From a virus, in IMG/VR virus record IMGVR_UViG_3300027721_001267, positions 1-41,675 of that record: a stretch of 41,675 bases of DNA. One strand, written 5' to 3'. Shown one piece after another: positions 4,974 to 37,766 of this stretch (positions within the stretch are counted from its first letter, which is position 1; each line of letters starts with the position of its first letter). The position numbers were made by a program, and so were the translations under genes. The notes beneath the pieces were generated by a model. The model was not told where the DNA came from, did not search any database, and saw only the letters and a list, made by a program, of their open reading frames with translations.

Positions 4974-4974
4974 A

Positions 4975-15187: not shown

Positions 15188-15194
15188 TAATGCC

Positions 15195-15986
15195 GTGAAT
15201 AACGTAGACCGTAATTTGTTAAAAACATGTTTAAATTGTAACTCTTCACTTAAAAGTAGACGAGTAAATTTTTGTAAACCGCCTTCATATTGTAGGTACG
15301 AATATCAACTAAAACAAAGAGATTTAAAAGCATATAATATATTATCTAATAAAGATAGTAATTTTTATTACCTAATAGGTCTAATTTGTACTGACGGTAC
15401 CCTTAGATACCCTAAAGACGATAAACTTAAAAATATTGGATACTCTTTTTCAATAAGTATCAATATAAACGATATTGAAACTATTAATAGTTTACAAAAT
15501 TTATTTGGCGGTAAAATAACAACAAGAAAAGACAATACTGTTAATTGGTATATTAGTAATAAAAAATTTGTGGAATATTTGTTAAATGTAGTCGGTTTAA
15601 CAAGCAATAAAACATATAGTTTAAATGTTTCAAAATGGTTTGAAAGTCTCGAACAGGGGTTTAAAATAGATTTCTTAAGAGGTGTTATAGATGGTGACGG
15701 CTCTATAAAAATTTTTAATAAACATTTTCGTACATTTAATATATGTACTGCATCAGAATCTTTTAAAGATATGATTGTTAGTTTTTTAACAACTTATTAT
15801 TCTGACAATGTTAAAGTTGAAAAAAATAAAAGTAGAAACTATTATTATATAAGATATAATGGTAGATATATGATCGATTTATTAAACGATATATATAATA
15901 ATCTTAGTAAGAAAATATACTTAAAACGCAAGTATAATACTTTTATAGAAATTAAAAATTTTTTTAATACGTATGGAAAAAAATAA
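15195..15986 (+). CDS. LAGLIDADG homing endonuclease, free-standing
   Basis: A 263-residue single-chain enzyme with two LAGLIDADG motifs: LIGLICTDG at residues 60-68 (catalytic Asp67) and LRGVIDGDG at 161-169 (catalytic Asp168). An N-terminal zinc-ribbon-like Cys set (C12, C15, C27, C33) may add DNA binding. It starts with GTG; an ATG at 15190 is followed at once by a stop. It lies exactly between two paralogous glycosyltransferases, eight bases after the first and overlapping the second by 14 bases. By eye it is even more AT-rich than its neighbours, in keeping with recent arrival. No intron or intein is seen around it. Confidence 0.9.
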   Translation: MNNVDRNLLKTCLNCNSSLKSRRVNFCKPPSYCRYEYQLKQRDLKAYNILSNKDSNFYYLIGLICTDGTLRYPKDDKLKNIGYSFSISININDIETINSLQNLFGGKITTRKDNTVNWYISNKKFVEYLLNVVGLTSNKTYSLNVSKWFESLEQGFKIDFLRGVIDGDGSIKIFNKHFRTFNICTASESFKDMIVSFLTTYYSDNVKVEKNKSRNYYYIRYNGRYMIDLLNDIYNNLSKKIYLKRKYNTFIEIKNFFNTYGKK

Positions 15987-16761
15987 AATAGGTGTAGGTA
16001 TTGTAACATATAACTCAGAGGATTACTTTAAATCTCTTTATGAGACCCTTCCTCTTGCTAAAATTAATGAATTAGTAGTTGTTAATGGTGGTAATCATTA
16101 TCGTGAGAATTACGCCTGTCATTGGATTCAGCATAACACGAATTGCTACCCTGCTATTTGTAGAAATGATGCTGTTAATTTTTTAATAAACAGAGGATGT
16201 GAGCACATCTTTCTTATCGAAGATGATATGATTATTAAAGATCCGAATATTTTTGAAAAATATATTAAAGCGTCTGAAGCATCCGGGTTAAAGTATTTTT
16301 CTTATGTTAGTACGTCTTGGGAATCGGGAGAACCAGGTAATAGAACACCTCGTCTAACTATAGAATATACACCTGAAGTTAGTATTTCATTTTATAAGAA
16401 TATGTGTAACGAATTTACATATCATCATTATACAGCTTTTGAGGATACAGGGCTTTATGATACTCAATTTAGAGATCCGTTTGATATTGATATGGCTTAT
16501 CGTGAATCTCTACAAGGTCATGCAGCACCTTTTTGGTGGTTTGCTGATGTTACGGGTTCAGACGATTTAATCTGTAATAATCCAGTAGCTGTTAGCCGCT
16601 TACAGGGAGAAAGACCGGATGGATCTAGAGCTCAACGGATAGAAGAACAGTGGAAGTTGTTTATAGCCAAACACGGTACTTTTGTAGGAGAAATACCTGA
16701 TATTACTAAAGACAAAGCTCTTCAGCGTCTTATTATGAGAGGAAAGAATTACGGTAAATGA
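15973..16761 (+). CDS. GT-A glycosyltransferase (GT2-like), tandem copy 2
   Basis: A 262-residue paralogue of the gene at 14384: NKIGVGIVTYNSEDYFKSLYE start, HIFLIEDDMIIKDPNIFEKYIKASEASG (DxD region near residue 80), and PFWWFADVTGSDD. Paralogy is clear from matching order and spacing. The acceptor is unknown. It overlaps the homing endonuclease end by 14 bases, and its stop overlaps the next start (ATGA), so it is translated as part of the chain. Confidence 0.85.
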   Translation: MEKNKIGVGIVTYNSEDYFKSLYETLPLAKINELVVVNGGNHYRENYACHWIQHNTNCYPAICRNDAVNFLINRGCEHIFLIEDDMIIKDPNIFEKYIKASEASGLKYFSYVSTSWESGEPGNRTPRLTIEYTPEVSISFYKNMCNEFTYHHYTAFEDTGLYDTQFRDPFDIDMAYRESLQGHAAPFWWFADVTGSDDLICNNPVAVSRLQGERPDGSRAQRIEEQWKLFIAKHGTFVGEIPDITKDKALQRLIMRGKNYGK

Positions 16762-17558
16762 AAATAGTTATAGGTATAAACACATTTAAAAAGGACTCTG
16801 ATCTTAATAACAGAGAAAGAATGTGTATAGATGCATTACATAAGTTAAAGCGTATGTATCCAGACAGTATAGAATTAGTAAATCTTACATTCACTGATGA
16901 AGATTTTGAATTACCGATGTTTACTAATAAGCATTGCTTACAGCAAATACCGACAAGTATAACCAATAAAAAAATACCTTTTGTTAACGAAATTTTTGAT
17001 CATCTAGCTGAAACAGATGCTGATTATTTTTTATTTGTTAATAACGATATTATAGTTTCCAACCGTTATATTAAAGCAGTACAAAGTAATCTTGAATATG
17101 ATTGTTTACCTGCTAGTAAATTACATTTTACAAAATTAGATTCTATTGACGATAATGATAGTGTACCAGAATCATTAAGTGTTCACGGCTTTGATGGTTT
17201 TGCCATCAAGTGTAGTTGGTGGAAGCAAAATAGAGATAAATTTAAACCAATGCTTTTGAGTAGAGCGTATTGGGATACATATTTTTATGCTAAATGCCAT
17301 TTATACGGTAAAAGTTTAACACTCAATAAACCACCTGCCGTTATATTTCATCTTGATCATGAAAGTACGTCAATGGATGGTGAACCTGGAAACACTTACA
17401 ATGAAAAAAATTTCATTGAAGATAAAGATCAATTACCTCAAAGATGGTTTTCATATGTACAAAATGTATTGCTAAAGAGGTCTTCTGAGAATAATATAAA
17501 GTGGTACGTTCCCTTTAATAATGAACAAGAAATCGAAAAAAAATATTTTACCTTATGA
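16758..17558 (+). CDS. GT-A type glycosyltransferase
   Basis: A 266-residue protein. The first strand is MKIVIGINTFKKDSD; the probable metal site is YFLFVNNDIIVSNRYIKA (residues about 94-111), where NND replaces DxD. Later come GFDGFAIKCSWW and an FHLDHES motif, as in GT2-like enzymes. No membrane segment. It is coupled at both ends by four-base ATGA overlaps. Donor and acceptor unknown. Confidence 0.75.
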   Translation: MKIVIGINTFKKDSDLNNRERMCIDALHKLKRMYPDSIELVNLTFTDEDFELPMFTNKHCLQQIPTSITNKKIPFVNEIFDHLAETDADYFLFVNNDIIVSNRYIKAVQSNLEYDCLPASKLHFTKLDSIDDNDSVPESLSVHGFDGFAIKCSWWKQNRDKFKPMLLSRAYWDTYFYAKCHLYGKSLTLNKPPAVIFHLDHESTSMDGEPGNTYNEKNFIEDKDQLPQRWFSYVQNVLLKRSSENNIKWYVPFNNEQEIEKKYFTL

Positions 17559-18349
17559 ATGTAGGAATTGCCTTAGCTTTAGATTATAAGAAAGAAGATA
17601 TTTTACCGTTTCTTAATAGTTACGAAAAAAACTCTTCTGGTATTTTATATCTTATAACAAATAATGTAGATCAGTATGTTAACTATAGCAAAATAAAAAC
17701 AATAGATATATTTGTTTTAGCTAAACAATATAATATTAATCTGTCTCGATTAACAGTTTTTAATCTCAAACCAGTATTATTTTATTTAGTTTTAAAAACA
17801 CTTAAAGGTAAATGTACAAACGCTTTATTAACTGATGTTGATATTGTTTTTCAACAGGATCCGTTTTCAATACTCGATGAAATTAAAACAGATTCATTTA
17901 TTGTTTGTGAAGAATGTGTTCTATATAAAGACAACGACACAAATACCACTTGGTTCAACGCAGGGTATCACGAAGAATATGAAAGTGTAAGGAATCAAAA
18001 AGTATTAAATTGCGGTGTTGCTATTGGTAGATATGATGCAGTACTTGATTATCAAAAACAAGTAGCAAAAGAATTAGAGCACATTTTAGCTGTTAGACCA
18101 TATTTTGCATATGATCAAGTTATTTTAAATGTATTAACATACTCTCGTAAAACACTTAATCCAACTATCTTACCGCATAATACACATTTTATATCACATA
18201 TGCACTTCTTAAAAGATGAAGATTTAACTAATTACCCCTTTAAGGACGGTATAATGCATTCCCCGAATAATAAACCGTATATTATTATACATCAATTTAA
18301 CGAAAACAAAATAATAAACGATTTTATTCACAACACTTGGAAGTACTAA
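17555..18349 (+). CDS. glycosyltransferase, nucleotide-diphospho-sugar transferase type
   Basis: A 264-residue protein with ALLTDVDIVFQQDPFSIL near residue 90 (DVD motif) and NCGVAIGR near residue 152, both typical of GT8/GT77-like nucleotide-diphospho-sugar transferases. A His-rich C-terminus (HFISHMHF, IIIHQF) could complete the metal site. It overlaps the previous gene by four bases and ends in TAATG with the next ATG. The sugar is not predictable. Confidence 0.75.
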   Translation: MNVGIALALDYKKEDILPFLNSYEKNSSGILYLITNNVDQYVNYSKIKTIDIFVLAKQYNINLSRLTVFNLKPVLFYLVLKTLKGKCTNALLTDVDIVFQQDPFSILDEIKTDSFIVCEECVLYKDNDTNTTWFNAGYHEEYESVRNQKVLNCGVAIGRYDAVLDYQKQVAKELEHILAVRPYFAYDQVILNVLTYSRKTLNPTILPHNTHFISHMHFLKDEDLTNYPFKDGIMHSPNNKPYIIIHQFNENKIINDFIHNTWKY

Positions 18350-19086
18350 TGTCAAAAAAAACTATATTAAATTTAGACGTCTGGGGAGGCTTAGGAGATA
18401 ATTTACAGTTATCAACAATACCTCGACGTTTTTTTGAAAAGTTTGGATACAACGGTGTTTATATTTCCAATAGCACTCCTTGGCGAAATGATGAAATAAA
18501 AAAACTTGTATGGGATAATAATCCCTATATAGCAGGATATACAGACAAGAAGGGTATTAATATAGCTGACAACGGACTCATTAGGTATGATGGTGTAACA
18601 CACTGGATAGCTAATATGGAAAAAATATACGGGTTCGATGCACCTCACGGCAAAGTACCAGAAATATATTACTCGTTTAATGATAAAGATACTTTTAATG
18701 TAAGTAATAAGGTGATTGTTGATATTACTAGTAGTAACGAAAACAACACAATGGATAAGCCGTATCATCGTCAAAAAATGAAAGAGTATTTTGACCGCTT
18801 AGAAGATCAGATAACAATAGTTAAGTTTAATAATTTAAAAAATAACAAAACGTTTATAGATTACACAAATGAAATTATTAACAATTCAGTTGAATATATT
18901 GATGTAAACAGCATTTATGAGTATTGTGAAATAATACGTAAATGTAAAAAATATATTTGTTCCTTTTCGGGAAATCATTGCCTAGCTGCAAGCATTAGAA
19001 ATAATTTAACTTGCTTTGCACCAGAGATGTATTACAATATGAAGTATTTTATTTTCGAGGGTAACTTTGAATATATATTAATTTAA
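18349..19086 (+). CDS. GT-B glycosyltransferase, heptosyltransferase-like (GT9)
   Basis: A 245-residue protein. WGGLGDNLQLSTIPRRFFEKFG near the start is the glycine-rich entry of GT9 (ADP-heptose:LPS) and related GT-B enzymes. The C-terminal ICSFSGNHCLAASIRNN corresponds to the donor-binding loop. It is shorter than bacterial GT9 enzymes (about 320-350). I use ATG 18349, which shares its A with the preceding TAA; a TTG at 18337 is less likely. Confidence 0.7.
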   Translation: MSKKTILNLDVWGGLGDNLQLSTIPRRFFEKFGYNGVYISNSTPWRNDEIKKLVWDNNPYIAGYTDKKGINIADNGLIRYDGVTHWIANMEKIYGFDAPHGKVPEIYYSFNDKDTFNVSNKVIVDITSSNENNTMDKPYHRQKMKEYFDRLEDQITIVKFNNLKNNKTFIDYTNEIINNSVEYIDVNSIYEYCEIIRKCKKYICSFSGNHCLAASIRNNLTCFAPEMYYNMKYFIFEGNFEYILI

Positions 19087-19087
19087 T

Positions 19088-19951
19088 ATGCAACCTATAT
19101 ATGTACATCTCGATCCGACAAATTTTCCCTTTAGTAAGGATTTAAGTTTTAGTAATTATACGTTTAATGAAATACCTGAATATGCAACTATAGGTTTTGA
19201 ACAAACAAAAAAATTACTAAAACGGGATCCTATTTTATTATCCAATAAAGATATAGTAGAGTTCGAGAACGATATTGTTAGTTTTTTTGATATTTGCAAA
19301 AAAGGTTTTCCATCCTTTTATAAGGATACTTTCTGGTTATTAACATTATTAAGACTTTATGTTGTAAACTTATATGTTAACAAACATAATATTACAAAGT
19401 TTATTCATTTAGAATACGATAATTTAATATATTCAGATTTATCTGTATTAGAACAACTATCATCCTCTGTTTATTTTACCCGAGTAGGACCCTGCATGAG
19501 TTCAGCAGGTTTTATGTATTGTAATAGTTTAGATCATTTTAATAAATTTATAGATAAAATAAAACAATTATTAAGTAAAGGAGAAAAATTTGTTAGACAA
19601 TTTACAGGGTATGATCATTTATCAGAAATGATATTAATTGATTTAATTTACGAGCATACAAAAAACGTAATAGATTATTTACCTATTTTACCATTTGGAA
19701 AAGGTAATGATAACTTTGATAAGTTACAAGTATTGTTTGACGGAGCCTCTTACGGTCAGTACATAGGAGGTACAAATAACGGAGATGGTAAAGGCTGGAC
19801 AGGGAGACACCACTACACAGGATGCGCTATACAAAATAATATTATTAAGGTTACGTATGATAAAGTACCGTATGTAACATTTAACGGTAAACAAATACCT
19901 ATACTAAATTTACATATTCATTCTAAAAAACTTAAAGATTATCTATGTTAA
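19088..19951 (+). CDS. putative glycosyltransferase (FDGASYGQY family)
   Basis: A 287-residue protein. FIHLEYDNLIYSDL near residue 107 is a DxD-like site (EYDN). FDGASYGQYIGGTNNGDG near residue 217 and LHIHSKKLKDYL at the end recur in phage and bacterial GT-A-like proteins of uncharacterised type. The two last features are the basis of the call. It starts one base after the previous stop and overlaps the next gene by seven bases. Confidence 0.6.
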   Translation: MQPIYVHLDPTNFPFSKDLSFSNYTFNEIPEYATIGFEQTKKLLKRDPILLSNKDIVEFENDIVSFFDICKKGFPSFYKDTFWLLTLLRLYVVNLYVNKHNITKFIHLEYDNLIYSDLSVLEQLSSSVYFTRVGPCMSSAGFMYCNSLDHFNKFIDKIKQLLSKGEKFVRQFTGYDHLSEMILIDLIYEHTKNVIDYLPILPFGKGNDNFDKLQVLFDGASYGQYIGGTNNGDGKGWTGRHHYTGCAIQNNIIKVTYDKVPYVTFNGKQIPILNLHIHSKKLKDYLC

Positions 19952-20721
19952 GAGAAGATATTATAACCGGTAACGCATTTAAAAATATCTGTGATGATTT
20001 TTTAGACGACGATAAAAAATATATCGATATCACAAAAAAACCTAAGATAATTTTCTTAAAAACAGATTGGATCGAACGGTTTAAACAAAAAGTACTACCA
20101 CTTATAGACTATAAGTTTAAACTTGTAACACATAATGCAGATCGACCTGCTATTTCAGGTAATTTAGATTTATTAGAAGATAATAGGCTTATTAAATGGT
20201 TTGGAATGAATGTTGACATATATCATTCTAAGTTACAACCTATACCTATAGGCATAGCCAACGAAAAATGGCCTCACGGAAATAAAGATGTTTTGTTAAA
20301 GGTTATAAATGAAAATAATGAGAAGAAAAAATTAGTATATTCTAATTTTGATATAACAACAAATTACGACAAAAGATATAATACTTTAAAAATAATAAGC
20401 ACTCATCCGTACATTGATTTTGAGAATACTAAATTAATTTTTGAGGACTATATAAGAAAGCTTAGTACATACAAGTATGTTATATCTCCACCAGGTAATA
20501 GTGTAGATTGTCATAGAATTTGGGAATCCATCTACCTGGGTGTTATACCTATTGTTGAGGAGCACTCTGCTTTAGAGTATTATAAAGATTTACCTATTTT
20601 ATTTGTTAAAACATTTAATGATGTTAACGAACAATTATTATATGATAGTTATCATACAGTAGTTGAAAAAAATAAAGAAAAATCTATAATTGAACATTAT
20701 AAGCAGCAAATTTTAATATGA
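19945..20721 (+). CDS. exostosin-like (GT47) glycosyltransferase
   Basis: A 258-residue protein. YKYVISPPGNSVDCHRIWESIYLGVIPIV (residues about 172-200) is the signature of the exostosin-like GT47 donor-binding domain. The upstream LQPIPIGIANEKWPHG also fits. No membrane anchor. Overlaps both neighbours (7 and 4 bases). Confidence 0.8.
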   Translation: MLREDIITGNAFKNICDDFLDDDKKYIDITKKPKIIFLKTDWIERFKQKVLPLIDYKFKLVTHNADRPAISGNLDLLEDNRLIKWFGMNVDIYHSKLQPIPIGIANEKWPHGNKDVLLKVINENNEKKKLVYSNFDITTNYDKRYNTLKIISTHPYIDFENTKLIFEDYIRKLSTYKYVISPPGNSVDCHRIWESIYLGVIPIVEEHSALEYYKDLPILFVKTFNDVNEQLLYDSYHTVVEKNKEKSIIEHYKQQILI

Positions 20722-21425
20722 TTAAAAGCAAATATAAAATATACGTTTGTCATTATCCCCCTTTAACAGCAAGAAAGAAGTATCTTGATTCTGTACTACC
20801 TACATTGGAAGTAGATTACGAATATTCAACTGAATATACTACATATAACCCTGAATACGATCATTTGTTTTCTTCTAAAAAAGAAGATTTTGATTTTAAA
20901 AATTCTTTTTCTCCTACCCCTTGCAACGATTTTAAATTTACAAATGCACTTAGAGCTTTATGTCTTGAGCATATTAACATTTACAAAAAAATAGAAGACG
21001 AAAATTTAGATTTTGGTATTGTTTTAGAAGATGATGCTGTTTTTGTTGACAACATTAAAGATAGACTCAATGAAACTATTTTAAATTTACCTGAAAATTG
21101 GGACGTAATATACCTTACTAATGGCTGCGAAAATAGGTGTGGTTCATTTCAACACGGTCGAGGAAATAATCCTACAATTAACAATTTTGTAAAAATGGAT
21201 ATACCATATTCTTGGACAGGTGGAGCATATATCATTAAAAAGGAAATTGCAAAACTCTACCGCAAGCATATTAGACCGGTTGTATTTCCACCAGATTTCG
21301 AATTAAATTATTTACAGGGTAGATTTAAAAGTAATGTTTATTGGTTAGAGGATCCCATAGTTTATGAAGGTTCTAACCCTGTATCAGGTAATTTATATAA
21401 ATACGGTTCAAGCGTTAACAGGTAA
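20718..21425 (+). CDS. GT25-type glycosyltransferase
   Basis: A 235-residue protein like the LPS-type GT25 family: KIYVCHYPPLTARKKYLDSVL start, GIVLEDDAVFVDNI near residue 98 (EDD metal motif), WDVIYLTNG and WTGGAYIIKKEIAKLY. All four come in the family's order. It starts in the last codons of the GT47 gene and ends directly before the next ATG. Confidence 0.82.
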   Translation: MIKSKYKIYVCHYPPLTARKKYLDSVLPTLEVDYEYSTEYTTYNPEYDHLFSSKKEDFDFKNSFSPTPCNDFKFTNALRALCLEHINIYKKIEDENLDFGIVLEDDAVFVDNIKDRLNETILNLPENWDVIYLTNGCENRCGSFQHGRGNNPTINNFVKMDIPYSWTGGAYIIKKEIAKLYRKHIRPVVFPPDFELNYLQGRFKSNVYWLEDPIVYEGSNPVSGNLYKYGSSVNR

Positions 21426-22223
21426 ATGAAACCTTTAATAACAACAAGGTTTTATCCTACAGATTATTTAAAAGAAATATTTGATACTCTCGATTTATGG
21501 TCGAATTGTATTAATAACAATAATAACTTTTCTTTTATTAAATTCGGAGACGGAGAATTATACTGCATGATGGGAGCTCCAGGTCAAAATTGCGATAAAC
21601 ATCCTTATTCACCTGAACTAGGTAATAAGCTTATTGATGCATGGAATTTTTTTAGTGATACAAACATTAAAAATATTTACATAGCTGAATGGGGGGATCA
21701 ACCAGGTTCCTTTGGTATGCCTCAATATGCCAGACCAGTACAAAATTTAAATAACCCTGTTTTTAGTTTTTTACAGCATATTTTAAGTCATAGACAACAT
21801 CATAATTTCAATTTTGTTAATTACGAAATATTAATGCATCATACCGTTTCTGAGCACAAATATAATTTTTTTAAATGTATAAAAGAAAGTAATCGTAAGA
21901 AAATTTTTGTTGGACCAGAAAGATTACATAGAGTACAACAATTTTTAAATATACACGTACATATACCTATACCGATTTTAAATTCTTTTGGTGCTTACGA
22001 TACTATACTCTCAAGATGTTTAGAAGAAACAGAAAACAATGCTATTTTTATTTTTTGTGGTAGTTTACCTTCAAAAAGTTTAATACACAAAATATTACAA
22101 AATAATTCAAACGTTACATGTTTAGATGCAGGTAGTAGTTTTGACCCTCTCTTTGTTGGAGGTACGAGAGAAGGTCAAATTAATACAGATATTTTATTAG
22201 CCTTTTATCAAGAAATTATATAA
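21426..22223 (+). CDS. GT-D fold glycosyltransferase (DUF1792-like)
   Basis: A 265-residue protein. SFIKFGDGELYCM (residues about 36-48) matches the R/KFGDGE motif of the GT-D family, which uses DxE to bind metal and sugar nucleotide. IFVGPERL and IFCGSLPSKSLIH later fit the same fold. It begins immediately after the preceding stop. Known relatives add sugars to glycoproteins or polysaccharides; the acceptor here is unknown. Confidence 0.72.
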   Translation: MKPLITTRFYPTDYLKEIFDTLDLWSNCINNNNNFSFIKFGDGELYCMMGAPGQNCDKHPYSPELGNKLIDAWNFFSDTNIKNIYIAEWGDQPGSFGMPQYARPVQNLNNPVFSFLQHILSHRQHHNFNFVNYEILMHHTVSEHKYNFFKCIKESNRKKIFVGPERLHRVQQFLNIHVHIPIPILNSFGAYDTILSRCLEETENNAIFIFCGSLPSKSLIHKILQNNSNVTCLDAGSSFDPLFVGGTREGQINTDILLAFYQEII

Positions 22224-22231
22224 CTATACAC

Positions 22232-22879
22232 ATGACAGAGTTTAATTTAATAACATTAATGCCGCTTATTGAGGAATCAATAAATTACCCTAGCAGCAGT
22301 AAGTATTCACCAGCAGGAAGAAGTTCTAGCGGGCTAGGCACGATACTGTTTGGGCTAATAACGACATTAAGATGTAAAAATATACTCGAAACAGGAACTG
22401 CATCAGGAGGGTCGGCATATCCGCTATTACTAGGTGCATATTTAACACAAGGAATTGTTACTTCTGTTGACAACGGAACTTTTCCAGTCAATAGACAATG
22501 GATAGATAATATACCTATTGAAAATATAAGTAAGCATGCCAGGTATATAGAATCTGATGCTATTTTATTTTTAAAAAATAGTAAAGAAATATACGATTTT
22601 ATTTTTATAGATGATTGGCATGAATATAATCATGTTTTAACAGAGCTAGAATATGCAAAAGAATTAATTTCACCTAACGGCGTTATTGCAATGCATGATG
22701 CAATGTATGGTAATTACGAGCCAAGATACAGAATGGATCATACGCCAGGAGGTGAGTTTGGATCAGGCGGAGTTTATAAGGCAATAAAGGATTTTGTTGC
22801 AAAATATCCTGAAGAATGGGAATACTGTACAATACCTGCAGACCACGGCTTAACTATCTTAAGAAAAATACAAAATTAA
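22232..22879 (+). CDS. class I SAM methyltransferase (Methyltransf_24 type)
   Basis: A 215-residue methyltransferase: motif I ILETGTASGGSAYPLLLGA (residues about 51-69), motif II VTSVDNG, and DFIFIDDWHEYNHVLTELEYA (motif IV, acidic) followed by GVIAMHDAMYG. This layout is that of class I methyltransferases found in polysaccharide loci, commonly acting on sugar hydroxyls. It lies eight bases after the GT-D gene. Confidence 0.8.
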   Translation: MTEFNLITLMPLIEESINYPSSSKYSPAGRSSSGLGTILFGLITTLRCKNILETGTASGGSAYPLLLGAYLTQGIVTSVDNGTFPVNRQWIDNIPIENISKHARYIESDAILFLKNSKEIYDFIFIDDWHEYNHVLTELEYAKELISPNGVIAMHDAMYGNYEPRYRMDHTPGGEFGSGGVYKAIKDFVAKYPEEWEYCTIPADHGLTILRKIQN

Positions 22880-22884
22880 TTTAT

Positions 22885-23739
22885 ATGTTTAATTATAAAT
22901 TTATTGTTGTTACAAGTCATACAACAAAGCATGTAACTTCTGCTTTTACTCATCTTTTCAATAGGTACGTCTCCCCAAAAGAAGAAGTATTGTTACTAGG
23001 TAATTACGAATATGGTTTAAACTTACCTGAAAATTTTTCTTATTTTAAAAGATGCGATGAAAATGAACCAATTAGTAATTGGACAAAAACTATTTATGAT
23101 TCTATTAAAGATATAAATACCGATTATTTTATTTTCGGTTTAGATGATTTTTTCCCAGTAAGATCTTTTAACTACGATATTTTTAATACTGTATTAGAGT
23201 ACATGGATAAAACACCTAATGCCGTTAGGTATGATTTTGGTCCTGGCATAGTATGCGATTATAAAACAAATTTAATAGATAAAAAAGATGACTTTGATAT
23301 TATTGAGCAGTGCCAAGGTGAGAATTATCGATGCTCTACTCAGTTTTCTATTTGGAAAAAAGATTTTCTTTTAACAAAATTATCTGTACCTAGATCTCCT
23401 TGGGATTTTGAAAATCAAGGATCAGAGGAAATGAGATATGATGGCAATCAGGTATTAGGTACAAATCGTAAATTTTGTTGGCATTGGATAGAGATGAGCG
23501 GAGTTAGCTCACGCGTACCCGGAAGAGTTAACGTTCTCGGAATCGATCTTAAAACAATACAAGAATTAATTGATTTAAAAATGCTTAACGAGCAAGATCT
23601 TCAATTTGGTTATTATGTCGGTAATGTACCCTATATTAATCACAAACACGATTTTAACTTTGATATTTTTAAACAGTATACAGGGGACAATCTTGAGTAT
23701 CAAAAACTTGATTTTAAATATAAACGCTATTATCAGTAA
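22885..23739 (+). CDS. putative glycosyltransferase
   Basis: A 284-residue protein starting MFNYKFIVVTSHTTKHVTSAFTHLF. The probable DxD region is DYFIFGLDDFFPVRSF near residue 88; NAVRYDFGPGIV and STQFSIWKKDFLL follow, as in uncharacterised GT-A-like proteins. The frame is open further upstream, but that would overlap the methyltransferase by 64 bases, so ATG 22885, five bases after its stop, is preferred. It ends the first part of the island: 39 bases with a promoter follow. Confidence 0.65.
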   Translation: MFNYKFIVVTSHTTKHVTSAFTHLFNRYVSPKEEVLLLGNYEYGLNLPENFSYFKRCDENEPISNWTKTIYDSIKDINTDYFIFGLDDFFPVRSFNYDIFNTVLEYMDKTPNAVRYDFGPGIVCDYKTNLIDKKDDFDIIEQCQGENYRCSTQFSIWKKDFLLTKLSVPRSPWDFENQGSEEMRYDGNQVLGTNRKFCWHWIEMSGVSSRVPGRVNVLGIDLKTIQELIDLKMLNEQDLQFGYYVGNVPYINHKHDFNFDIFKQYTGDNLEYQKLDFKYKRYYQ

Positions 23740-23740
23740 C

Positions 23741-23767
23741 TTGCAAATAATATAAACAATATATAAT
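23741..23767 (+). promoter_or_regulatory. promoter TTGCAA-15-TATAAT inside the glycan island
   Basis: TTGCAA at 23741, fifteen bases, TATAAT at 23762, eleven bases to ATG 23779. It would drive the second half of the island (sugar methyltransferase, dehydratase, nucleotidylyltransferase). Confidence 0.5.
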
Positions 23768-23778
23768 TACAACAATAT

Positions 23779-24531
23779 ATGAGCATTAAATTTACAGGTA
23801 ATTGGGCACCAGATAGTAGAGAGTGGAGAGATGTTTGTAATAGTATATCAAATGACTTAACAAGCTTTAAGAGTAACCCGGTATACATTAGAATAATAGC
23901 TAATGACTTAAGAGATGTAAATACTACTAAATTATTTTTTGATTATATTAAAAATACTTACCCTGAACTTTTTGATAAGCTAGACATTTTTAATACGAAC
24001 GACACTCTAGGTAAACCTAATGTGTTTAATATTGAAGGACATAATGTTTGCCCAGGTACATTAAGATTTGTAAAAGTGCTAGGTGATATTAAAAAATATA
24101 ACCCTAAATCTATTATTGAAATAGGTAGCGGTTACGGAGGTCAATGCAAAATAATTAAAGATTATTTAAATGTAGATTATACGTTAGTTGATTTACCTGA
24201 AAGTTTGTTAGTAGCTAAGTCTTATCTTAAACATTTTAACACAGACGCTACATTTGTAAGCAGTGAAGATATTACCTTAAACGATCAATATGATTTAGTT
24301 ATAAGTGATTATTGTATTTCAGAATTTGATCAAGAAGGTATGAATTTTTACATTGAACATGTTGTTAAAAAATGTAACAATGCATACTTCACAATAAACA
24401 ACGATCAGGCAAGTAGAGATCATCTATTAACAAAATTACGTGAAATATATAATGATGTAATTATCGTTCCTGAAGAACCGCGTACATCTGCTCATAGTAA
24501 CATTGTTGCCCTTTGCTCAAATAAGATATGA
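23779..24531 (+). CDS. sugar O-methyltransferase-like protein
   Basis: A 250-residue class I methyltransferase: SIIEIGSGYGGQCKIIKDYL (motif I, residues about 113-132), YTLVDLPESLLVAKSYL (acidic motif II) and YDLVISDYCISEFD (motif IV). This set, with the VDLPE sequence, is typical of putative sugar O-methyltransferases in polysaccharide clusters. It has its own promoter and overlaps the following dehydratase gene by four bases. Confidence 0.75.
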   Translation: MSIKFTGNWAPDSREWRDVCNSISNDLTSFKSNPVYIRIIANDLRDVNTTKLFFDYIKNTYPELFDKLDIFNTNDTLGKPNVFNIEGHNVCPGTLRFVKVLGDIKKYNPKSIIEIGSGYGGQCKIIKDYLNVDYTLVDLPESLLVAKSYLKHFNTDATFVSSEDITLNDQYDLVISDYCISEFDQEGMNFYIEHVVKKCNNAYFTINNDQASRDHLLTKLREIYNDVIIVPEEPRTSAHSNIVALCSNKI

Positions 24532-25469
24532 AAACAATTCTAATAACAGGCGGATCAGGGTTTTTAGGTAAAAATCTCGCCAAAGCGTTTAAATCTGATT
24601 ATAATGTAATATTAGGATCGAGAAACAATAAGCAAAATCTCGCCACTAAGCTTGAAACAGGATGTGAGGTAGTACCTCTTGATATTACAAATATCGAAAG
24701 TGTAAGAGATGCTGTTAATAGCTACAAGCCAGATATTATTATTCATGCTGCAGCAACAAAGTTTGTTGATCTATCTGAGGTATTTCCAAATGAGTGTGTT
24801 GATATTAATGTAGTAGGCTCTCAAAATGTAGCTCGTGTTGCTATCGATAAAGGAGTTTCAACTGTTATTGGTGTTTCAACCGATAAAGCAGCACCGCCTG
24901 TGCGTAACACATATGGTATGTCAAAAGCTATTATGGAGAGAATATTTTGCTCTCTTGATAGCAAACAATCTAATACAAGGTTTATGTGTGTTAGATACGG
25001 AAATGTAGTTTGGTCCACAGGTTCCGTTTTACCTATTTTTAAAAAAATGCATGAAGAAAATAATCACCTTGTTTCTACCGGTCCAGAAATGAGGAGATTT
25101 TTCTTTACTGTAAAAAATGCTGTATATCTTGTACAAACAGCACTAGCTAATATCGACAAATATCACGGCCAAGTTTTGTCAAGAGAGATGAAGTCAGCAA
25201 TGATGAGAGATATCTTAGATGTTATTGTAAAAAATAAAGGAGGTACTTGGGCTCCAGGAGAAACAAGACCTGGAGAAAGAAACGATGAATTTTTAATAGG
25301 GGAGCTAGAACTGCCGTATACTGAAAGTATTATTATTGATAATATCAAGCACTATTTAATTTCCTTTAATAATAAAAAAACTGAACCTTTACATGAAATT
25401 GTTTCATCGGAAAATGTAGAACATTTAACACAAGATGAAATTTTATCTCTAGTAAATGAAGAATGGTAA
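24528..25469 (+). CDS. UDP-GlcNAc 4,6-dehydratase-like SDR enzyme (CapD/PseB type)
   Basis: A 313-residue extended short-chain dehydrogenase. Its NAD-binding loop is GGSGFLG (residues 8-14). The active site has VSTDKAAPP and YGMSK (YxxxK), and MRRFFFTVKNAVYLV is the signature of CapD/PseB/FlaA1-type dehydratases. These make UDP-4-keto-6-deoxy sugars, the entry to rare amino or deoxy sugars. It overlaps the nucleotidylyltransferase gene by 14 bases. No membrane domain, unlike long FlaA1-type enzymes. Confidence 0.82.
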   Translation: MKTILITGGSGFLGKNLAKAFKSDYNVILGSRNNKQNLATKLETGCEVVPLDITNIESVRDAVNSYKPDIIIHAAATKFVDLSEVFPNECVDINVVGSQNVARVAIDKGVSTVIGVSTDKAAPPVRNTYGMSKAIMERIFCSLDSKQSNTRFMCVRYGNVVWSTGSVLPIFKKMHEENNHLVSTGPEMRRFFFTVKNAVYLVQTALANIDKYHGQVLSREMKSAMMRDILDVIVKNKGGTWAPGETRPGERNDEFLIGELELPYTESIIIDNIKHYLISFNNKKTEPLHEIVSSENVEHLTQDEILSLVNEEW

Positions 25470-26142
25470 ATTTAAAACAGCAGTAGTTTTAGCAGCAGGG
25501 AGAGGAGAGCGTTTAGACCCTATAACGAGAGTTGTACCTAAACCATTACTACCATTAAATGATAAGTGTTTAATTGATTTTACTCTTATTAATTTAAAAC
25601 ATGTATCAAATATCTTTGTTACAGTAGGTTATAAAAAAGATTTACTGACAAGTTATCTTTTTAACAAACACGACATATCAGGTGTTTTCGATACAAATCA
25701 AAAAGGTAATGCTTGGTGGATATATAATACACCTCTTCGTTTTTTAAACGAACCTATTATTGTCACAACATGTGATAATATCACTGAACTTAATTTAAAC
25801 AGTATATACAACGATTATATATCTCAAAATAGTCCTGCGTGCATGCTTGTGCCAACAACTCCTAAGCAAAATATAGATGGAGACTATATTTTTTATAATA
25901 AAGAAAATATAGTCAATAGCATAACCCGTACACAAAAAAACAATTCGTATGCCTCTGGTATACAAGTTTTAAACTTGTATAAAATTAATCAATTAACAAA
26001 AAAAACGCAATGCTTTTATGATGTGTGGAACAATTTAATAGAAAAGAAAAATTTAACTTGTTCAAACATTAACTTAAAAAAATGGTCAAGTATTGATACT
26101 ATTGAATGCTACAAGCAGTATTCAAAAATATCTTGCATTTAA
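25456..26142 (+). CDS. sugar-phosphate nucleotidylyltransferase
   Basis: A 228-residue protein with the NTP-transferase signature LAAGRGERLDPITRVVPKPLLPL (residues about 12-34): G-x-G-x-R-L for the NTP, and PKPLLP with the catalytic Lys. VTTCDNI near residue 98 is the metal-binding Asp. It makes an NDP-sugar from NTP and sugar-1-phosphate; the sugar cannot be told. With the two dehydratase/epimerase genes it forms the donor-synthesis part of the island. Confidence 0.82.
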   Translation: MKNGKFKTAVVLAAGRGERLDPITRVVPKPLLPLNDKCLIDFTLINLKHVSNIFVTVGYKKDLLTSYLFNKHDISGVFDTNQKGNAWWIYNTPLRFLNEPIIVTTCDNITELNLNSIYNDYISQNSPACMLVPTTPKQNIDGDYIFYNKENIVNSITRTQKNNSYASGIQVLNLYKINQLTKKTQCFYDVWNNLIEKKNLTCSNINLKKWSSIDTIECYKQYSKISCI

Positions 26143-26161
26143 AAGTAATATAAGTTAATTT
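26133..26161 (+). promoter_or_regulatory. weak promoter candidate TTGCAT-17-TAATTT
   Basis: TTGCAT at 26133, seventeen bases, TAATTT at 26156, seven bases before ATG 26169. It lies in the 26-base gap after the nucleotidylyltransferase; the -10 is a poor match. Confidence 0.3.
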
Positions 26162-26168
26162 ATATTTA

Positions 26169-27188
26169 ATGAAGATTATAATAACCGGTTCACTTGGTTT
26201 AGTTGGTATGGCTTCTTGTAAAAAGTACCTACAAGAAGGACATGAAGTAATAGGGGTAGATTGTAACGCCAGAGAAGAGTTTTTTGGAGATAAAGGTTCA
26301 ACAGCACATAAAGAAGTTAAACTGAAGGAACTAGGCAATTACAAGCATAATTGGGCAGATATTACTAATAAAGACGAAATTACAAAGGTGTTTAGAGAAG
26401 GTTTTGATACTGTTATTCATTGTGCAGCTCAACCAGCACATGACTGGGCCACAGATAATACAAGAAGAGATTTTGAAGTAAATACACTAGGAACTTTAAA
26501 TGTTTTAGAAGCTATCCGTCAATTTAATCTTGATGCACCCGTTATTCATGTGTCAACATCAAAGGTATATGGTGATAATCCAAATAGATTGCCTTTACAA
26601 AAATTTAACAAAAGATTAGACCTACCTACAGATCACGAAATTTATAAAGGTATACCTGAAACATTTAGTATTGATAATTGTCTTCATAGCTTTTTTGGAG
26701 TATCTAAAAGTGCAGGTGATTTATACGCCCAAGAGTACGGTAGGCATTTAGGTATGAAAGTAGGTATTTTTAGACCCGGTTGTATTACCGGTTCAGATCA
26801 CGAAGGAGTTCCCTTACACGGATTTCTTTCGTATCTATCAAAATGTATAAAAAACGGTACACAATATACAGTAATAGGTCACGACGGGTTACAGGTGAGA
26901 TGCAATATACATGCTGATGATCTAGTTAATGCGTTTGATTATTTTATTAAGGATCCTAGACCTGGAGAAGTCTACAATATGGGAGGCAGAGAATTAAGTG
27001 CATCAATGCTTGAGGCTATTGAAACCCTAGAAACGTTATCAGGTAAAAAATTAAACTGGGTATATAATAGCACATCACGTACAGGAGATCATCGCTGGTA
27101 TATATCTGATACCGATAAATTTAAAACTCACTATAATTGGAAACCTTTGAGATCTCTTACAAGCATATATCAAGAACTTTTAAATTAA
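26169..27188 (+). CDS. NAD-dependent nucleotide-sugar epimerase (CDP-paratose 2-epimerase-like)
   Basis: A 339-residue extended SDR. GSLGLVG (residues 7-13) is the NAD loop, followed by VIHCAAQPAHDW and VSTSKVYGDNPNRLP. The active-site region is HSFFGVSKSAGDLYAQEYGRHLGMKVGIFRPGCITG, the pattern of CDP-paratose/tyvelose epimerase relatives, where Phe stands in place of the usual YxxxK tyrosine (FGVSK). NIHADDLVNAFDYF follows. The Phe is common in this subgroup to my knowledge, so it is not by itself a sign of loss. Confidence 0.8.
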   Translation: MKIIITGSLGLVGMASCKKYLQEGHEVIGVDCNAREEFFGDKGSTAHKEVKLKELGNYKHNWADITNKDEITKVFREGFDTVIHCAAQPAHDWATDNTRRDFEVNTLGTLNVLEAIRQFNLDAPVIHVSTSKVYGDNPNRLPLQKFNKRLDLPTDHEIYKGIPETFSIDNCLHSFFGVSKSAGDLYAQEYGRHLGMKVGIFRPGCITGSDHEGVPLHGFLSYLSKCIKNGTQYTVIGHDGLQVRCNIHADDLVNAFDYFIKDPRPGEVYNMGGRELSASMLEAIETLETLSGKKLNWVYNSTSRTGDHRWYISDTDKFKTHYNWKPLRSLTSIYQELLN

Positions 27189-27189
27189 T

Positions 27190-27792
27190 ATGTCACAATA
27201 TAACATACCTCAAACAATATTAAACACTTTTGATCGACCTGGCTTTTATATCGAAGCAGGAGCATCGTCAGCTGTTGATCAGAGTAACACTTACACACTT
27301 GAGGTAAACGGTTGGACAGGCCTTCTTGTAGAACCTAGAACAGATCATAACGAGGAATATAAAAATATTCGACCCAATAGTATTGTAGAAAATTATGCAT
27401 TAGTCGATAAGAGTATTAACACGGCAACAATACCGTTTGGTCTTGACGGCCATATGTCAGGTGCATGCCCAGTACATATAAAACAAAAACCAGCTATATT
27501 AAACGTACCGTGCTGTACTTTAGATTCTTTACTTAAAAAACACAATCGTAGAGAGGTAGATTTCTTTTCTTTAGATGTAGAGGGATATGAGCATCAAGTT
27601 TTAGATGGTATAGATTTTGATTATTGTAAATTTAATATTTTATTAATCGAGGGTCATTGCGATTGGATGTATGATTTCTGTGATAAAAAAGAAGATTTTA
27701 GTTACATTGAAAAATACGGCTATAGATTAGATCACATGCCTGCCGCGGGTCAATATTTCTACGTACACTCAACGTTCAATTTTAAAAAGTAA
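27190..27792 (+). CDS. FkbM-family methyltransferase
   Basis: A 200-residue methyltransferase. GFYIEAGASSAVDQSNTYTLE...GWTGLLVEPR is the FkbM motif I region and VDFFSLDVEGYEHQVLDGIDF its conserved acidic motif. FkbM enzymes methylate sugar or polyketide hydroxyls. It ends the glycan island, starting one base after the epimerase stop and lying 52 bases before gene 46. Confidence 0.87.
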   Translation: MSQYNIPQTILNTFDRPGFYIEAGASSAVDQSNTYTLEVNGWTGLLVEPRTDHNEEYKNIRPNSIVENYALVDKSINTATIPFGLDGHMSGACPVHIKQKPAILNVPCCTLDSLLKKHNRREVDFFSLDVEGYEHQVLDGIDFDYCKFNILLIEGHCDWMYDFCDKKEDFSYIEKYGYRLDHMPAAGQYFYVHSTFNFKK

Positions 27793-33498: not shown

Positions 33499-34077
33499 AT
33501 GAGCGAACTACAATTACGTCTAAAGGACGAAACAGCTGCACTTCACAGTGAATCTGAACAGCATCCCCTAATGCAATCTTTCGTTGACGGTTCCTTTAAA
33601 AAGGAGCATCTTCTGGAACTTTTAATCAACCTTTTACCTGTTTACCAAGTAGTAGAGCATCGTTTACTTTTAAAAGAAATCTTTAATACACCAGATCTTA
33701 AAAGAAGTACACAAATACAAAAAGATATTGATAATCTTATTCAAGATACAGGCATTACCAGTTTTAAAGTTAGAGAAATAACTGAAAATTGGGTTTCCTC
33801 ATCTTGGAGAAAGAATATATATGTATTAAAGGCTGATTTCTATCTTAGATGGTTAGCTGATTTTTACGGAGGAAGGGTACTTGCTAAGTCTCAAGCACCA
33901 TATAATGAAATGTATCAATCTACTGATCCTATGACGGTAATTACCACTGTTAGATATCTTTTAACTAAAGATACACCAGATACACTAAACGATAAAATCG
34001 TTAATGAAACAAAAAACTTTTTTAAATTTCATATTGATCTGTTTAACGAAATTTTATGGAGCAAGCCTCTTATCTAA
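33499..34077 (+). CDS. hemO: heme oxygenase
   Basis: A 192-residue heme oxygenase that opens heme to biliverdin IXalpha, iron and CO, using ferredoxin-type electrons. The start LRLKDETAALHSESEQHPLM carries the proximal haem ligand at His16. VYQVVEHRL matches the next helix, and YLRWLADFYGGRVLAK (residues 115-130) is the distal helix with Asp121 and Gly124-Gly125. Length is typical of bacterial and cyanophage enzymes. It overlaps the bilin reductase gene by 22 bases, so the two form a pathway pair: haem to biliverdin to a reduced bilin. Confidence 0.88.
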   Translation: MSELQLRLKDETAALHSESEQHPLMQSFVDGSFKKEHLLELLINLLPVYQVVEHRLLLKEIFNTPDLKRSTQIQKDIDNLIQDTGITSFKVREITENWVSSSWRKNIYVLKADFYLRWLADFYGGRVLAKSQAPYNEMYQSTDPMTVITTVRYLLTKDTPDTLNDKIVNETKNFFKFHIDLFNEILWSKPLI

Positions 34078-34706
34078 GGCAATATTTTGACCTCGTAACC
34101 CAAGACTTTAATAGTCTTTTAGGGTATTCAAAAACAGGGTCTAGTAATTTTACCAGGCCGAATTGGATTAATAATTTCTACGAGCATCATAATCCAGCAT
34201 TAAGACATGCTCACCTTCAGTATTATAAGACTGATAGAATAGGTATTGTACATCTTAATATTTTTCCGCATCCAACTATTGATTACCCTATACTAGGAGC
34301 AGATTTAATCGAAATTGGTGGTAAGATTACAGGTTTCTTTTTTGATGTAACTCCAATCGATAAAAATCAAATTATACAAAAAACACTTATACAATTTAAA
34401 AACTCATTAAAGTCACCTGAAAGGAAGCTTCCTGAATGGGCAAACTTTTTTAGCGATAATTTTATTTGCGTAACTCCACAAGAAAGTGAAATTGACTATA
34501 TTATGAGCAATTCTAGATATATTATAAGAGATTATCTTATTAACCTTAAGACTTACAAAGATAAATATAGTCTTAATATAAAGAAGCAAAACGATTACTG
34601 CAAAGGACAAAAGAAAAACGATAAAACATTTAAATCCTTAGCAGCTGATATCGGTGATAAAGAGGCTAAAGATTTTCTTAATAATTTTATGTTTCCTGAG
34701 CTTTAA
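34056..34706 (+). CDS. ferredoxin-dependent bilin reductase (PcyA/PcyX/PebS family)
   Basis: A 216-residue reductase of biliverdin. IVHLNIFPHPTIDYPILGADLIEI is the family core; His66 and Asp83 have the same spacing (17) as the catalytic His88 and Asp105 of PcyA. The C-terminal YCKGQKKNDKTFKSLAADIG holds Asp189, equivalent to the conserved NDKT Asp. PcyX, described from uncultured marine phage genomes next to a heme oxygenase, makes phycoerythrobilin and belongs to the PcyA side; retention of the His favours PcyX or PcyA over cyanophage PebS, which I recall having Asn there. The product is not certain. It is coupled to the heme oxygenase by a 22-base overlap. Confidence 0.85.
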   Translation: MEQASYLRQYFDLVTQDFNSLLGYSKTGSSNFTRPNWINNFYEHHNPALRHAHLQYYKTDRIGIVHLNIFPHPTIDYPILGADLIEIGGKITGFFFDVTPIDKNQIIQKTLIQFKNSLKSPERKLPEWANFFSDNFICVTPQESEIDYIMSNSRYIIRDYLINLKTYKDKYSLNIKKQNDYCKGQKKNDKTFKSLAADIGDKEAKDFLNNFMFPEL

Positions 34707-34926: not shown

Positions 34927-35778
34927 ATGCTTATTAGTCACGAAACACCTATCAGTCTCCTAGATACCTCAAGAGGATATAACGATTACGATTACGCTCT
35001 AGTACACCTACTACCCGAACATCCAGAATATTATAGATTTTATAAAGATTCTGTATCTATGGGAAGACATGTATTGCTTGATAATAGTATCTTTGAACTA
35101 GGAGAAGCCTATGATTCTAAAGAGTTTGCATACTGGGTTAAAGAACTTCAACCGACTGAATATATTATACCTGACGTATTAGAGAGTACCGAAGGCACTA
35201 TTGAAAGCTTTAATAAATTTACAAGCGAGTACAATAACCTTCCAGGTAAAACAATAGGTGTTGTACAGGGTAAAACTTACAAAGAAATTGTAAAGTGTTA
35301 CAATTATATGTGTAAGAGAGTAAGTAAGATTGCTATATCTTTTGATTATTCATTTTATCTTAACGAATGGGATTCTTTTGAAGCTTTCGAACAAGAATTA
35401 GGTACATTACCTGAATGGGTGAAAGGCATGGAATTTAATAAATGGGTTAGATATACTCTGGGTAGAGCTGCTCTATTATATAGACTTTGTATTAGAGATA
35501 ACTATTTCGACTATACAAAAAAGCATCATTTACTAGGCTGTGCAACACCTTGGGAATTTAAACTTTACCCTGGTGAAAAGTTTTTTAACGGTATTGAAAC
35601 CATCGATACATCTAATCCTATTGTAGCAGCTATTCTTTATAAGAAGTATAATCCTACATACGGTCTCCATGAAAAGTGGTCAGTTAAACTCGTAGATTAT
35701 ATTGGTGCTAATATAACACGAGATCAGCTTGAATTAGCTTTTTACAATACATCTCTTTTTAGAAAGTTTTGTTCATGA
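34927..35778 (+). CDS. dpdA: DpdA-like DNA guanine transglycosylase
   Basis: A 283-residue TGT-fold enzyme, predicted to swap guanine in DNA for a 7-deazaguanine. TGT landmarks are in order: LLDNSIFELGE (Asp52, where tRNA-TGT has DSGGFQ), IIPDVLES (Asp83), GVVQGKTY (111-118, like GIVQGG), HHLLGCATPWEF (200-211, like HxLMGxGxPxD) and IDTSNP (Asp227, at the place of the nucleophilic Asp in FDCVxPTR). The RNA-specific and zinc-binding parts of bacterial TGT are not evident, and the protein is shorter. It is followed with a four-base overlap by the formyltransferase, and QueF lies two genes on. It seems closest to phage DpdA2 types, but I cannot assign the subfamily without alignment. Confidence 0.85.
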   Translation: MLISHETPISLLDTSRGYNDYDYALVHLLPEHPEYYRFYKDSVSMGRHVLLDNSIFELGEAYDSKEFAYWVKELQPTEYIIPDVLESTEGTIESFNKFTSEYNNLPGKTIGVVQGKTYKEIVKCYNYMCKRVSKIAISFDYSFYLNEWDSFEAFEQELGTLPEWVKGMEFNKWVRYTLGRAALLYRLCIRDNYFDYTKKHHLLGCATPWEFKLYPGEKFFNGIETIDTSNPIVAAILYKKYNPTYGLHEKWSVKLVDYIGANITRDQLELAFYNTSLFRKFCS

Positions 35779-36296
35779 GGACCTGGGTAACATTTTTCAG
35801 TCAGACTGGTTCTGAGATTTACAAGCTTTCAAATAGACTTGAAAGAGTACCTGATGTAATCATTACAAATAGTGAAAAGATTCGACCTGAAGTTGTAGAT
35901 AAGTTTGGAGATAGTATAGTTTACGTTAGCCCGAAACCTACAATAGAAGATTATCTTAGATTTATACCTGTTAATAGCTTAGTTACTCTTCACGGATGGC
36001 TTAGAATTATACCAGAAGAGATTTGTGATCGTTATGAAATTTACAATCTTCACCCTGCTAACCTATTTCATAACCCTGAACTAAAAGGAAAAGATCCACA
36101 AAAAATGGCTTATAACAAAAAACTTATATTTTCAGGTAATACTATTCATCGCTGTACAGCAGAGCTTGATGCAGGAGAGATACTTGAGCACAGTTATACT
36201 TCTATTGAAGGTTTAACACTTAGTGAAACTATTGCAACATTACATGAAGATGCTACAAATTTGTGGTATAGATTTTTAAAAAGGAGACTACAATAG
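35775..36296 (+). CDS. formyltransferase, probable preQ1-DNA formyltransferase (DpdN-like)
   Basis: A 173-residue protein of the PurN/formyl-transferase fold. The catalytic triad of glycinamide-ribonucleotide formyltransferase is present: Asn91 and His93 in YNLHPANLF, and Asp132 in TAELDAGEIL. No other purine-synthesis gene is near. Instead its ATG overlaps the dpdA stop (ATGA), with QueF two genes on. A dPreQ1 formyltransferase (DpdN) has been predicted for phages whose DNA contains 7-(formylamino)methyl-7-deazaguanine; this gene fits that role. A TTG at 35769 is an unlikely earlier start. Confidence 0.82.
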   Translation: MRTWVTFFSQTGSEIYKLSNRLERVPDVIITNSEKIRPEVVDKFGDSIVYVSPKPTIEDYLRFIPVNSLVTLHGWLRIIPEEICDRYEIYNLHPANLFHNPELKGKDPQKMAYNKKLIFSGNTIHRCTAELDAGEILEHSYTSIEGLTLSETIATLHEDATNLWYRFLKRRLQ

Positions 36297-36300
36297 ATAA

Positions 36301-36858
36301 ATGAAAATTGCTATTTCAGGCGCTCATAGTCAAGGTAAGACTACTCTTATAAACTATCTACAGAATCTAGGTAAATTAACAGAGTTTGATTTTATGACTT
36401 CTTTAACAAGAAGTATGCAAGATGCGGGGTATAATATTAATGAAGACGGGGATGAAGTAACTCAGCTTGCGATTATGGCTAAGCATTTTCAGAGACTTAG
36501 CTGTAAAAATGAGGTTATTTATGATCGTTGTGCTTTGGACGGTTATGCTTATTCTATGTCTCTAGTAAAAGATCTTAGAGTTTTAGATATTATTAGGGAT
36601 ATGTTTCTAGTAATGATTGATAGATACGATCTTATATTTTATGTTGTGCCGGAGTTAGATCTAGTAGAAGATGGTCAACGTACAGTCAATAAAGATTTCT
36701 TTGATAGTGTAGTGCAATCTTTCGATTGTATTATTAAATCATATGCAATACCTGTTGTAAGGCTTAGCGGTTCTGTAGAAGAACGTGCTAGACAATTCTT
36801 TTTAGCTTTACAGGATAAAGAGGTAGAAAAACACAACAATGAATTTTACGAATTATGA
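36301..36858 (+). CDS. P-loop nucleotide/NadR-type kinase, paralogue B
   Basis: A 185-residue ATPase: P-loop G7AHSQGKT14, VIYDRCALDGYAYS near residue 77 and LIFYVVPELDL near 117. It is related to the gene at 3581 by the same order of motifs. It starts four bases after the formyltransferase stop and overlaps QueF by four bases (ATGA). Its position inside the deazaguanine operon suggests a part in the modification, for example phosphorylating or salvaging a deazaguanine nucleoside. The substrate is not known. Confidence 0.78.
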   Translation: MKIAISGAHSQGKTTLINYLQNLGKLTEFDFMTSLTRSMQDAGYNINEDGDEVTQLAIMAKHFQRLSCKNEVIYDRCALDGYAYSMSLVKDLRVLDIIRDMFLVMIDRYDLIFYVVPELDLVEDGQRTVNKDFFDSVVQSFDCIIKSYAIPVVRLSGSVEERARQFFLALQDKEVEKHNNEFYEL

Positions 36859-37766
36859 GTACAACTAACATGAACGACATTGCATCGAAGTCTTTAGGAT
36901 CTTCAGCTTCGTATGCAGTATATACCGATACGTTTGATCCATCATTGCTTAACCCGATGCCTCGATCTTTAGCTCGAGATGATTGGAATATTAAATCAGA
37001 TAGCTTTGTAGGGTTTGATACCTGGCACTGTCATGAAGCAACATTTCTTCTTGATAGCGGAGTACCTGTAGCAGGAACTTTAAAGTATGTCTATTCAAGT
37101 GATTCAGAATTCATGGTTGAGTCAAAATCAGCTAAGCTTTATTGTAATTCGTTTGATATGTGTAAGATGGGTGAAACATACAATCAAGCTATTACTAATT
37201 ACGAAAATCAAATTAAAACAGATCTTGAGAATGTTCTTAAGACGCCTGTATCAGTTAAATTCTTCCGCTCAGGATGTGATGAAAACGCTACTGACCCTGT
37301 TCCTGGTTATGTAGATCTTACAGATAAGATTCATTTTAGTACAGAAATTACAGATTACGCTTCTAAGGAAGAACACCTTAAATTTTACTCTCTTGTAGAT
37401 GGTGAAGAGATTGTTGAGTGTAAGTATTTTACTAATGCTTTAAGGTCACGTTGTAGACATACAAAGCAGAAAGATACAGGTACTGCTTATATCCGTATTA
37501 TTACAAAAGGGTGCGAAGTTAACCCTGTTTCGCTTTTTAAACAAGTTGTATCTTTGAGAGAAGTTAATGAGTTTCATGAATTTTGTGCAGAAAAACTCTA
37601 TACGAGTATTATGAGTCATCCAGCAGTAATTGATTGCGCTGTAACACTTCTTTACGCACGTAGAGGATCTCTCGATATTAACCCAACTAGGGCAAGTAAA
37701 GCTGATCTTCTTCCATCTGTTCTTATTGATTCAAATATCTATACAAAAAAGGCAATGGGTCAATAA
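36855..37766 (+). CDS. queF: QueF, NADPH-dependent 7-cyano-7-deazaguanine (preQ0) reductase
   Basis: A 303-residue long-form QueF (E. coli type, 282), reducing preQ0 to preQ1. Visible motifs: FDPSLLNPMPRSLAR near the start; VESKSAKLYCNSF with Glu89 (the QueF-specific ESKS); LRSRCRHTKQKD with catalytic Cys200 and Asp207, seven apart as in E. coli Cys190/Asp197; and SLREVNEFHEFCAE with His241 and Glu242. ESKS and the Cys separate it from the related T-fold enzymes FolE and QueD. It is last in the dpdA-formyltransferase-kinase-queF operon. Confidence 0.93.
   Translation: MSTTNMNDIASKSLGSSASYAVYTDTFDPSLLNPMPRSLARDDWNIKSDSFVGFDTWHCHEATFLLDSGVPVAGTLKYVYSSDSEFMVESKSAKLYCNSFDMCKMGETYNQAITNYENQIKTDLENVLKTPVSVKFFRSGCDENATDPVPGYVDLTDKIHFSTEITDYASKEEHLKFYSLVDGEEIVECKYFTNALRSRCRHTKQKDTGTAYIRIITKGCEVNPVSLFKQVVSLREVNEFHEFCAEKLYTSIMSHPAVIDCAVTLLYARRGSLDINPTRASKADLLPSVLIDSNIYTKKAMGQ

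Follow-up and report, generated by a model that had tools for sequence, protein, structure and literature searches.

A PurN-fold formyltransferase gene next to dpdA in a viral gene block is a predicted preQ1 formyltransferase (DpdN)

Results

Genes of the locus

The window, that is, the whole stretch of viral DNA that was analyzed (41,675 bases, a fragment), carries a block of genes on the plus strand and further genes of the 7-deazaguanine type on the minus strand, which were assigned as follows.

34927–35778, plus strand: dpdA, a 283-aa DNA-guanine transglycosylase-like protein with the TGT fold (model, tblastn, invariant Asp)
35775–36296, plus strand: candidate dpdN, a 173-aa PurN-fold N-formyltransferase (Pfam match, AlphaFold model, residue alignment, tree)
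36301–36858, plus strand: P-loop nucleoside/nucleotide kinase, AAA_28, phrog_2107 "thymidylate kinase" (family matches, conserved neighborhood)
36855–37766, plus strand: queF, a bimodular preQ0 nitrile reductase, which makes preQ1 (structure match, catalytic residues)
3581–4213, minus strand: second AAA_28/dNK-like kinase, next to queE-queD (family matches)
4215–5021, minus strand: QueE-like radical SAM protein, 7-carboxy-7-deazaguanine synthase (phrog_2076 QueE-like, 3.4e-41; NCBIfam QueE models below cut-off)
4975–5427, minus strand: QueD-like 6-carboxytetrahydropterin synthase (PTPS 7.4e-16; QueD 7.1e-9, below cut-off)

The start codon of the formyltransferase gene (ATG, 35775–35777) shares an ATGA with the dpdA stop codon (TGA, 35776–35778), as an earlier note on this DNA had read it. 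The "fusion" of which that note spoke is not one, however, since these are separate genes with a 4-bp overlap of a type that is common here; the kinase and queF also overlap by 4 bp, and the overlap was therefore discarded as special evidence. The proposed grouping with queF was borne out, with queF following the kinase, a gene between dpdN and queF that the note had not mentioned.

The dpdA product matched no Pfam or NCBIfam family. Its AlphaFold model (pLDDT 96.2) had as its sole PDB matches at E ≤ 0.001 TGT (7e-6) and 7ui4 (8e-5), the DNA preQ0 insertase DpdA, and the name dpdA is therefore appropriate. Residues D52, D83 and D227 are invariant in 52 homologues, as expected for the catalytic Asp of the TGT superfamily, and although the hhalign comparison with E. 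coli Tgt was weak (P 0.016), the GxVQG, HLLG and DTSNP motifs line up. By tblastn the protein is 43.5% identical to the DpdA of the Flavobacterium phage vB_FspM_immuto_2-6A (NC_055915; hereafter immuto) and 42–43% to that of CP220-like phages, and it shares 44% with the DpdA of CP220 itself; it is thus related to the DpdA proteins of Firehammervirus and Immutovirus. DpdA3 is the DpdA subfamily of complete replacement.

A PurN fold with a different substrate pocket

The product of 35775–36296 was matched by Pfam Formyl_trans_N above the curated cut-off (8.5e-9), and its AlphaFold2 model (mean pLDDT 96.0) found PurN structures as its top PDB folds, with TMq up to 0.84. The triad N91-x-H93...D132 aligns with N106/H108/D144 of E. 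coli and is invariant in 57 of 57 relatives, in agreement with the earlier description of a PurN-fold enzyme with a full Asn-His-Asp triad. Fold, formyl-transfer center and top family match (PurN/Formyl_trans_N) are thus those of E. coli and cyanophage PurN, and the immuto homologue is itself annotated as PurN. Read in this way, the gene would encode a glycinamide ribonucleotide (GAR) transformylase, an auxiliary gene boosting purine synthesis in the host, as annotated in immuto and in cyanophages.

The substrate pocket tells against this. PurN binds GAR by its phosphate and ribose through the residues N13 and E173. When 57 DpdN and 14 PurN sequences were compared in E. coli numbering, N and E were kept in all 14 PurN, whereas every DpdN had E or D for N13 and S or A for E173; in the DpdN signature, E14 and S/A160 stand in these places. 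The DpdN sequences add a largely conserved motif of their own, KGKDPQ. The candidate scored 34.5 bits with the NCBIfam PurN model, more than 100 bits below its curated equivalog cut-off of 150.1, and 23.2 bits with the Fmt model (cut-off 201.5). No Fmt-type C-terminal RNA-binding domain, nor any other extra domain, was found in the 173-aa protein; in Fmt this domain is the nucleic-acid-binding extension.

The phylogeny with PurN and Fmt that the earlier note had proposed placed DpdN in one clade with support 100/100, apart from PurN, cyanophage PurN, Fmt, PurU and ArnA. A scan of 84,980 bacterial and archaeal species genomes gave a single DpdN match, on a phage-like contig. The window ORFs that were scanned, which included only part of the short ones, contained no recognizable gene of purine synthesis, in line with what had been noted before, and it is dpdA that adjoins the gene instead. 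With the GAR residues replaced, the PurN and Fmt cut-offs missed and a clade of its own, 35775–36296 is not a purine-synthesis gene, and a role in boosting the purine supply is hardly credible.

The kinase, queF and the remaining pathway genes

The QueF product matched Vibrio QueF structures at 3e-53 and keeps Cys200, Asp207, His241-Glu242 and the ESKS motif, the features of a bimodular QueF, with an NCBIfam QueF score (168.5 bits) under the cut-off of 293. The closest solved relative of the adjacent kinase was weak (NadR-type, 0.0026). An AAA_28 "thymidylate kinase"-like protein was also seen in another viral locus (L100:6819-7361), and such proteins adjoin both dpdA/queF and queE/queD. The QueE-like gene was present in 13 of 14 related records, and FolE2 was located downstream in L004 and L006, which are close relatives. 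QueC was detected in related records of greater length, G003 among them, but not in the window, which is a fragment.

Elsewhere in the window, a heme oxygenase gene is followed by one for a ferredoxin-dependent bilin reductase (33499–34706; Pfam 1.6e-10 and 1.1e-19), an arrangement that is reminiscent of the paired pigment genes of viruses; homologous ORFs occupy this position in L004, whereas in L006 they do not. A long run of glycosyltransferase, sugar epimerase, nucleotidyltransferase and methyltransferase-like genes (12771–27792), with a LAGLIDADG endonuclease within it (15195–15986), suggests glycan synthesis by the phage.

The cassette in other viruses

The order dpdA-dpdN-kinase-queF was found in 51 of 51 sampled viral loci with enough flanking sequence, with DpdN identities down to about 42%. 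The earlier note had presented the case as a new one, but it is not rare: relatives of DpdN are encoded on at least 535 viral contigs, and immuto shares the four genes and their order, and has folE, queD and queE as well. The immuto DpdN is about 50% identical to that of the window, and immuto differs in the annotation of this homologue (phosphoribosylglycinamide formyltransferase), in having PolA rather than PolB, and in a small ORF between dpdA and dpdN.

A second sample was anchored on DpdA with CP220 as the lead sequence (57 loci). The kinase and queF were found without dpdN in 32 of these loci, and dpdN was present in 19; five loci, including CP220, had only the kinase, and one had none of the three genes. 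In 56 of the 57, a nucleoside/nucleotide-type kinase was located no further than 8 kb from DpdA, and the kinase is therefore the gene that accompanies this DpdA clade most constantly. Every dpdN locus of this sample was followed by queF (19/19, three at about 8 kb), as against 32 of 38 loci without dpdN, a link that within this sample alone is not statistically strong and is based on counts that ignore descent. At least three gains or losses of dpdN (five in the most economical history) have to be placed on the DpdA tree. Given these changes and the loci with queF and kinase alone, the cassette behaves as a core for making preQ1, to which dpdN adds a tailoring step that is optional.

Several variants of the cassette were also seen. 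In a phage from a Clostridiales bin (L214:786-2196), dpdA and dpdN overlap and a DNA polymerase A gene lies downstream; neither queF nor a kinase was found within 20 kb, and preQ1 would therefore need another source. At L077:2197-3126 and L079:7998-8927, DpdN is extended at its C terminus by about 130 aa that match phrog_1485; in L045, L046, L048, L050 and others, an ORF of its own near dpdN encodes a similar domain. In L077–L082, where the four genes lie in one frame with single stops between them, a polyprotein or recoding was considered and rejected, since each gene is an ORF with a start of its own and DpdN bears the C-terminal extension. The L045 cassette contains, around dpdN (L045:7427-9450), genes for a HIT-domain protein and for an ornithine cyclodeaminase-like one.

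A GNAT enzyme in the place of DpdN

In four loci, the gene between dpdA and the kinase encodes a GNAT acetyltransferase (assigned by Pfam and position):

L118:8798-9349, GNAT acetyltransferase
L146:8801-9346, GNAT acetyltransferase
L154:8801-9382, GNAT acetyltransferase
L220:617-1162, GNAT acetyltransferase

These proteins are of a 181-aa class, and the two tested scored above the Pfam cut-off. The gene overlaps dpdA by 4 bp in all four and the kinase by 4 bp in L118, L146 and L220, and queF follows each of these cassettes. All four GNAT matches in the viral collection occupy the dpdN slot, and none was found among named phages. In the simplest reading, the enzyme would acetylate the same amine, giving a predicted N-acetyl-preQ1 DNA; we know of no report of 7-(acetylamino)methyl-7-deazaguanine as a DNA base. 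Alternatively, the slot GNAT may be DpdM; DpdM is an already known methyltransferase.

Discussion

The best supported reading of the 35775–36296 product is DpdN, as first proposed in the earlier note, in view of the synteny with dpdA and queF, the conserved triad, the rewired GAR pocket and the virus-only clade. The position of the gene within a conserved guanine-replacement block makes formylation of an altered DNA base very probable. We infer the substrate and the donor: with good confidence, the enzyme would be a 10-formyltetrahydrofolate-dependent N-formyltransferase acting on the aminomethyl nitrogen of the preQ1-type 7-deazaguanine that replaces guanine in the phage DNA. The presence of a different acyltransferase, GNAT, in the same slot of four loci agrees with DpdN acting in this way, as does the lack of a match for dpdN and for queF in CP220, whose DpdA is related; CP220 is reported to carry a deazaguanine made without a preQ1 step.

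In the proposed pathway, GTP would be converted to preQ0 through FolE2 or FolE, QueD, QueE and QueC, and preQ0 to preQ1 by QueF. DpdA would then exchange guanine for the deazaguanine, and DpdN would formylate its amine before or after insertion to give fdPreQ1, which is presumed to occur in the virion DNA. 

Concerning the order of these steps, it is quite possible, though not the likelier course, that free preQ1 or its nucleotide is formylated first and that DpdA then inserts formyl-preQ1, in which case DpdN would not itself modify DNA. The single 173-aa domain, devoid of a nucleic-acid-binding extension, is consistent with this order, as are the small-molecule substrates of its PurN relatives and the use of the free base by bacterial QueF. 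The near-neutral pI of DpdN (median 6.1 in the viral loci sample) points the same way but is at most a hint, and was rejected as proof of a small-molecule substrate. By contrast, the name dPreQ1 formyltransferase denotes a nucleoside in DNA, and the coming and going of dpdN, at least three times on the DpdA tree, is most simply explained by a DpdA that inserts one and the same base with or without dpdN.

The constancy of the kinase would fit a different course, in which DpdA exchanges the base on a deoxynucleotide, the kinase raises the product towards the triphosphate, and the polymerase inserts it, giving complete replacement, with DpdN acting on the base or nucleotide. The kinase also adjoins DpdA in CP220, the DpdA proteins of this clade are acidic, with a median pI of 5.1, and T4-like phages have dedicated dNMP kinases for modified nucleotides. 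Nevertheless, this route is unlikely: the NadR-type match named above, the closest among solved structures, is a weak one for the kinase, and earlier findings point away from it, as Crippen and coworkers reportedly found no dADG phosphates in 2019, and Cui and coworkers are said to have inferred post-replicative insertion in 2023. Formylation by DpdN of preQ1 destined for, or already in, the DNA continues to be preferred.

The 2023 work of Cui et al., whose authors reportedly include workers on the immuto phage, is said to have described fdPreQ1 in phage DNA and to have predicted DpdN as a dPreQ1 formyltransferase. The present candidate is alike in being a predicted preQ1 formyltransferase linked to dpdA, and the signature residues, the kinase link and the abundance reported here may go beyond it. 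In the Campylobacter phage CP220 (Firehammervirus), a related DpdA is followed by a related kinase, as in the window, from which CP220 differs in having no match for dpdN or queF; the final base of the CP220 type is reported to be dADG. It has been shown that dPreQ1 occurs in phages with QueF homologues, in a study that leaves undecided whether QueF uses the free base, did not find DpdA in Campylobacter phages, and mentions dADG for them (Hutinet et al., 2019; PMC6884629). Complete replacement of dG by deazaguanine derivatives in firehammervirus is cited in PMC10273834. Near-complete replacement of dG is possible in the window phage as well, since its DpdA has relatives in Campylobacter phages for which full replacement of dG is reported.

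To the best of our knowledge, the GAR-pocket signature, the constancy of the P-loop kinase, the optional nature of dpdN with its three or more changes, and the GNAT in its slot are apparently new. In a proposal that we hold tentatively, as nearly an even call, the dpdA-kinase gap would be a swappable slot for acyl tailoring of preQ1, filled mostly by DpdN and in four loci by a GNAT that would yield the acetylated base, and the linked kinase would be an unrecognized part of the replacement machinery.

With a residue signature that separates it from PurN, DpdN passes from a predicted enzyme to a large family open to testing, and by this means hundreds of would-be viral purine-synthesis genes may be re-read as DNA-modification genes. 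Moreover, the conservation of the kinase and the GNAT exchange open direct experiments on how phages decorate the replaced guanine, a matter that bears on restriction evasion and on chemically tagged DNA.
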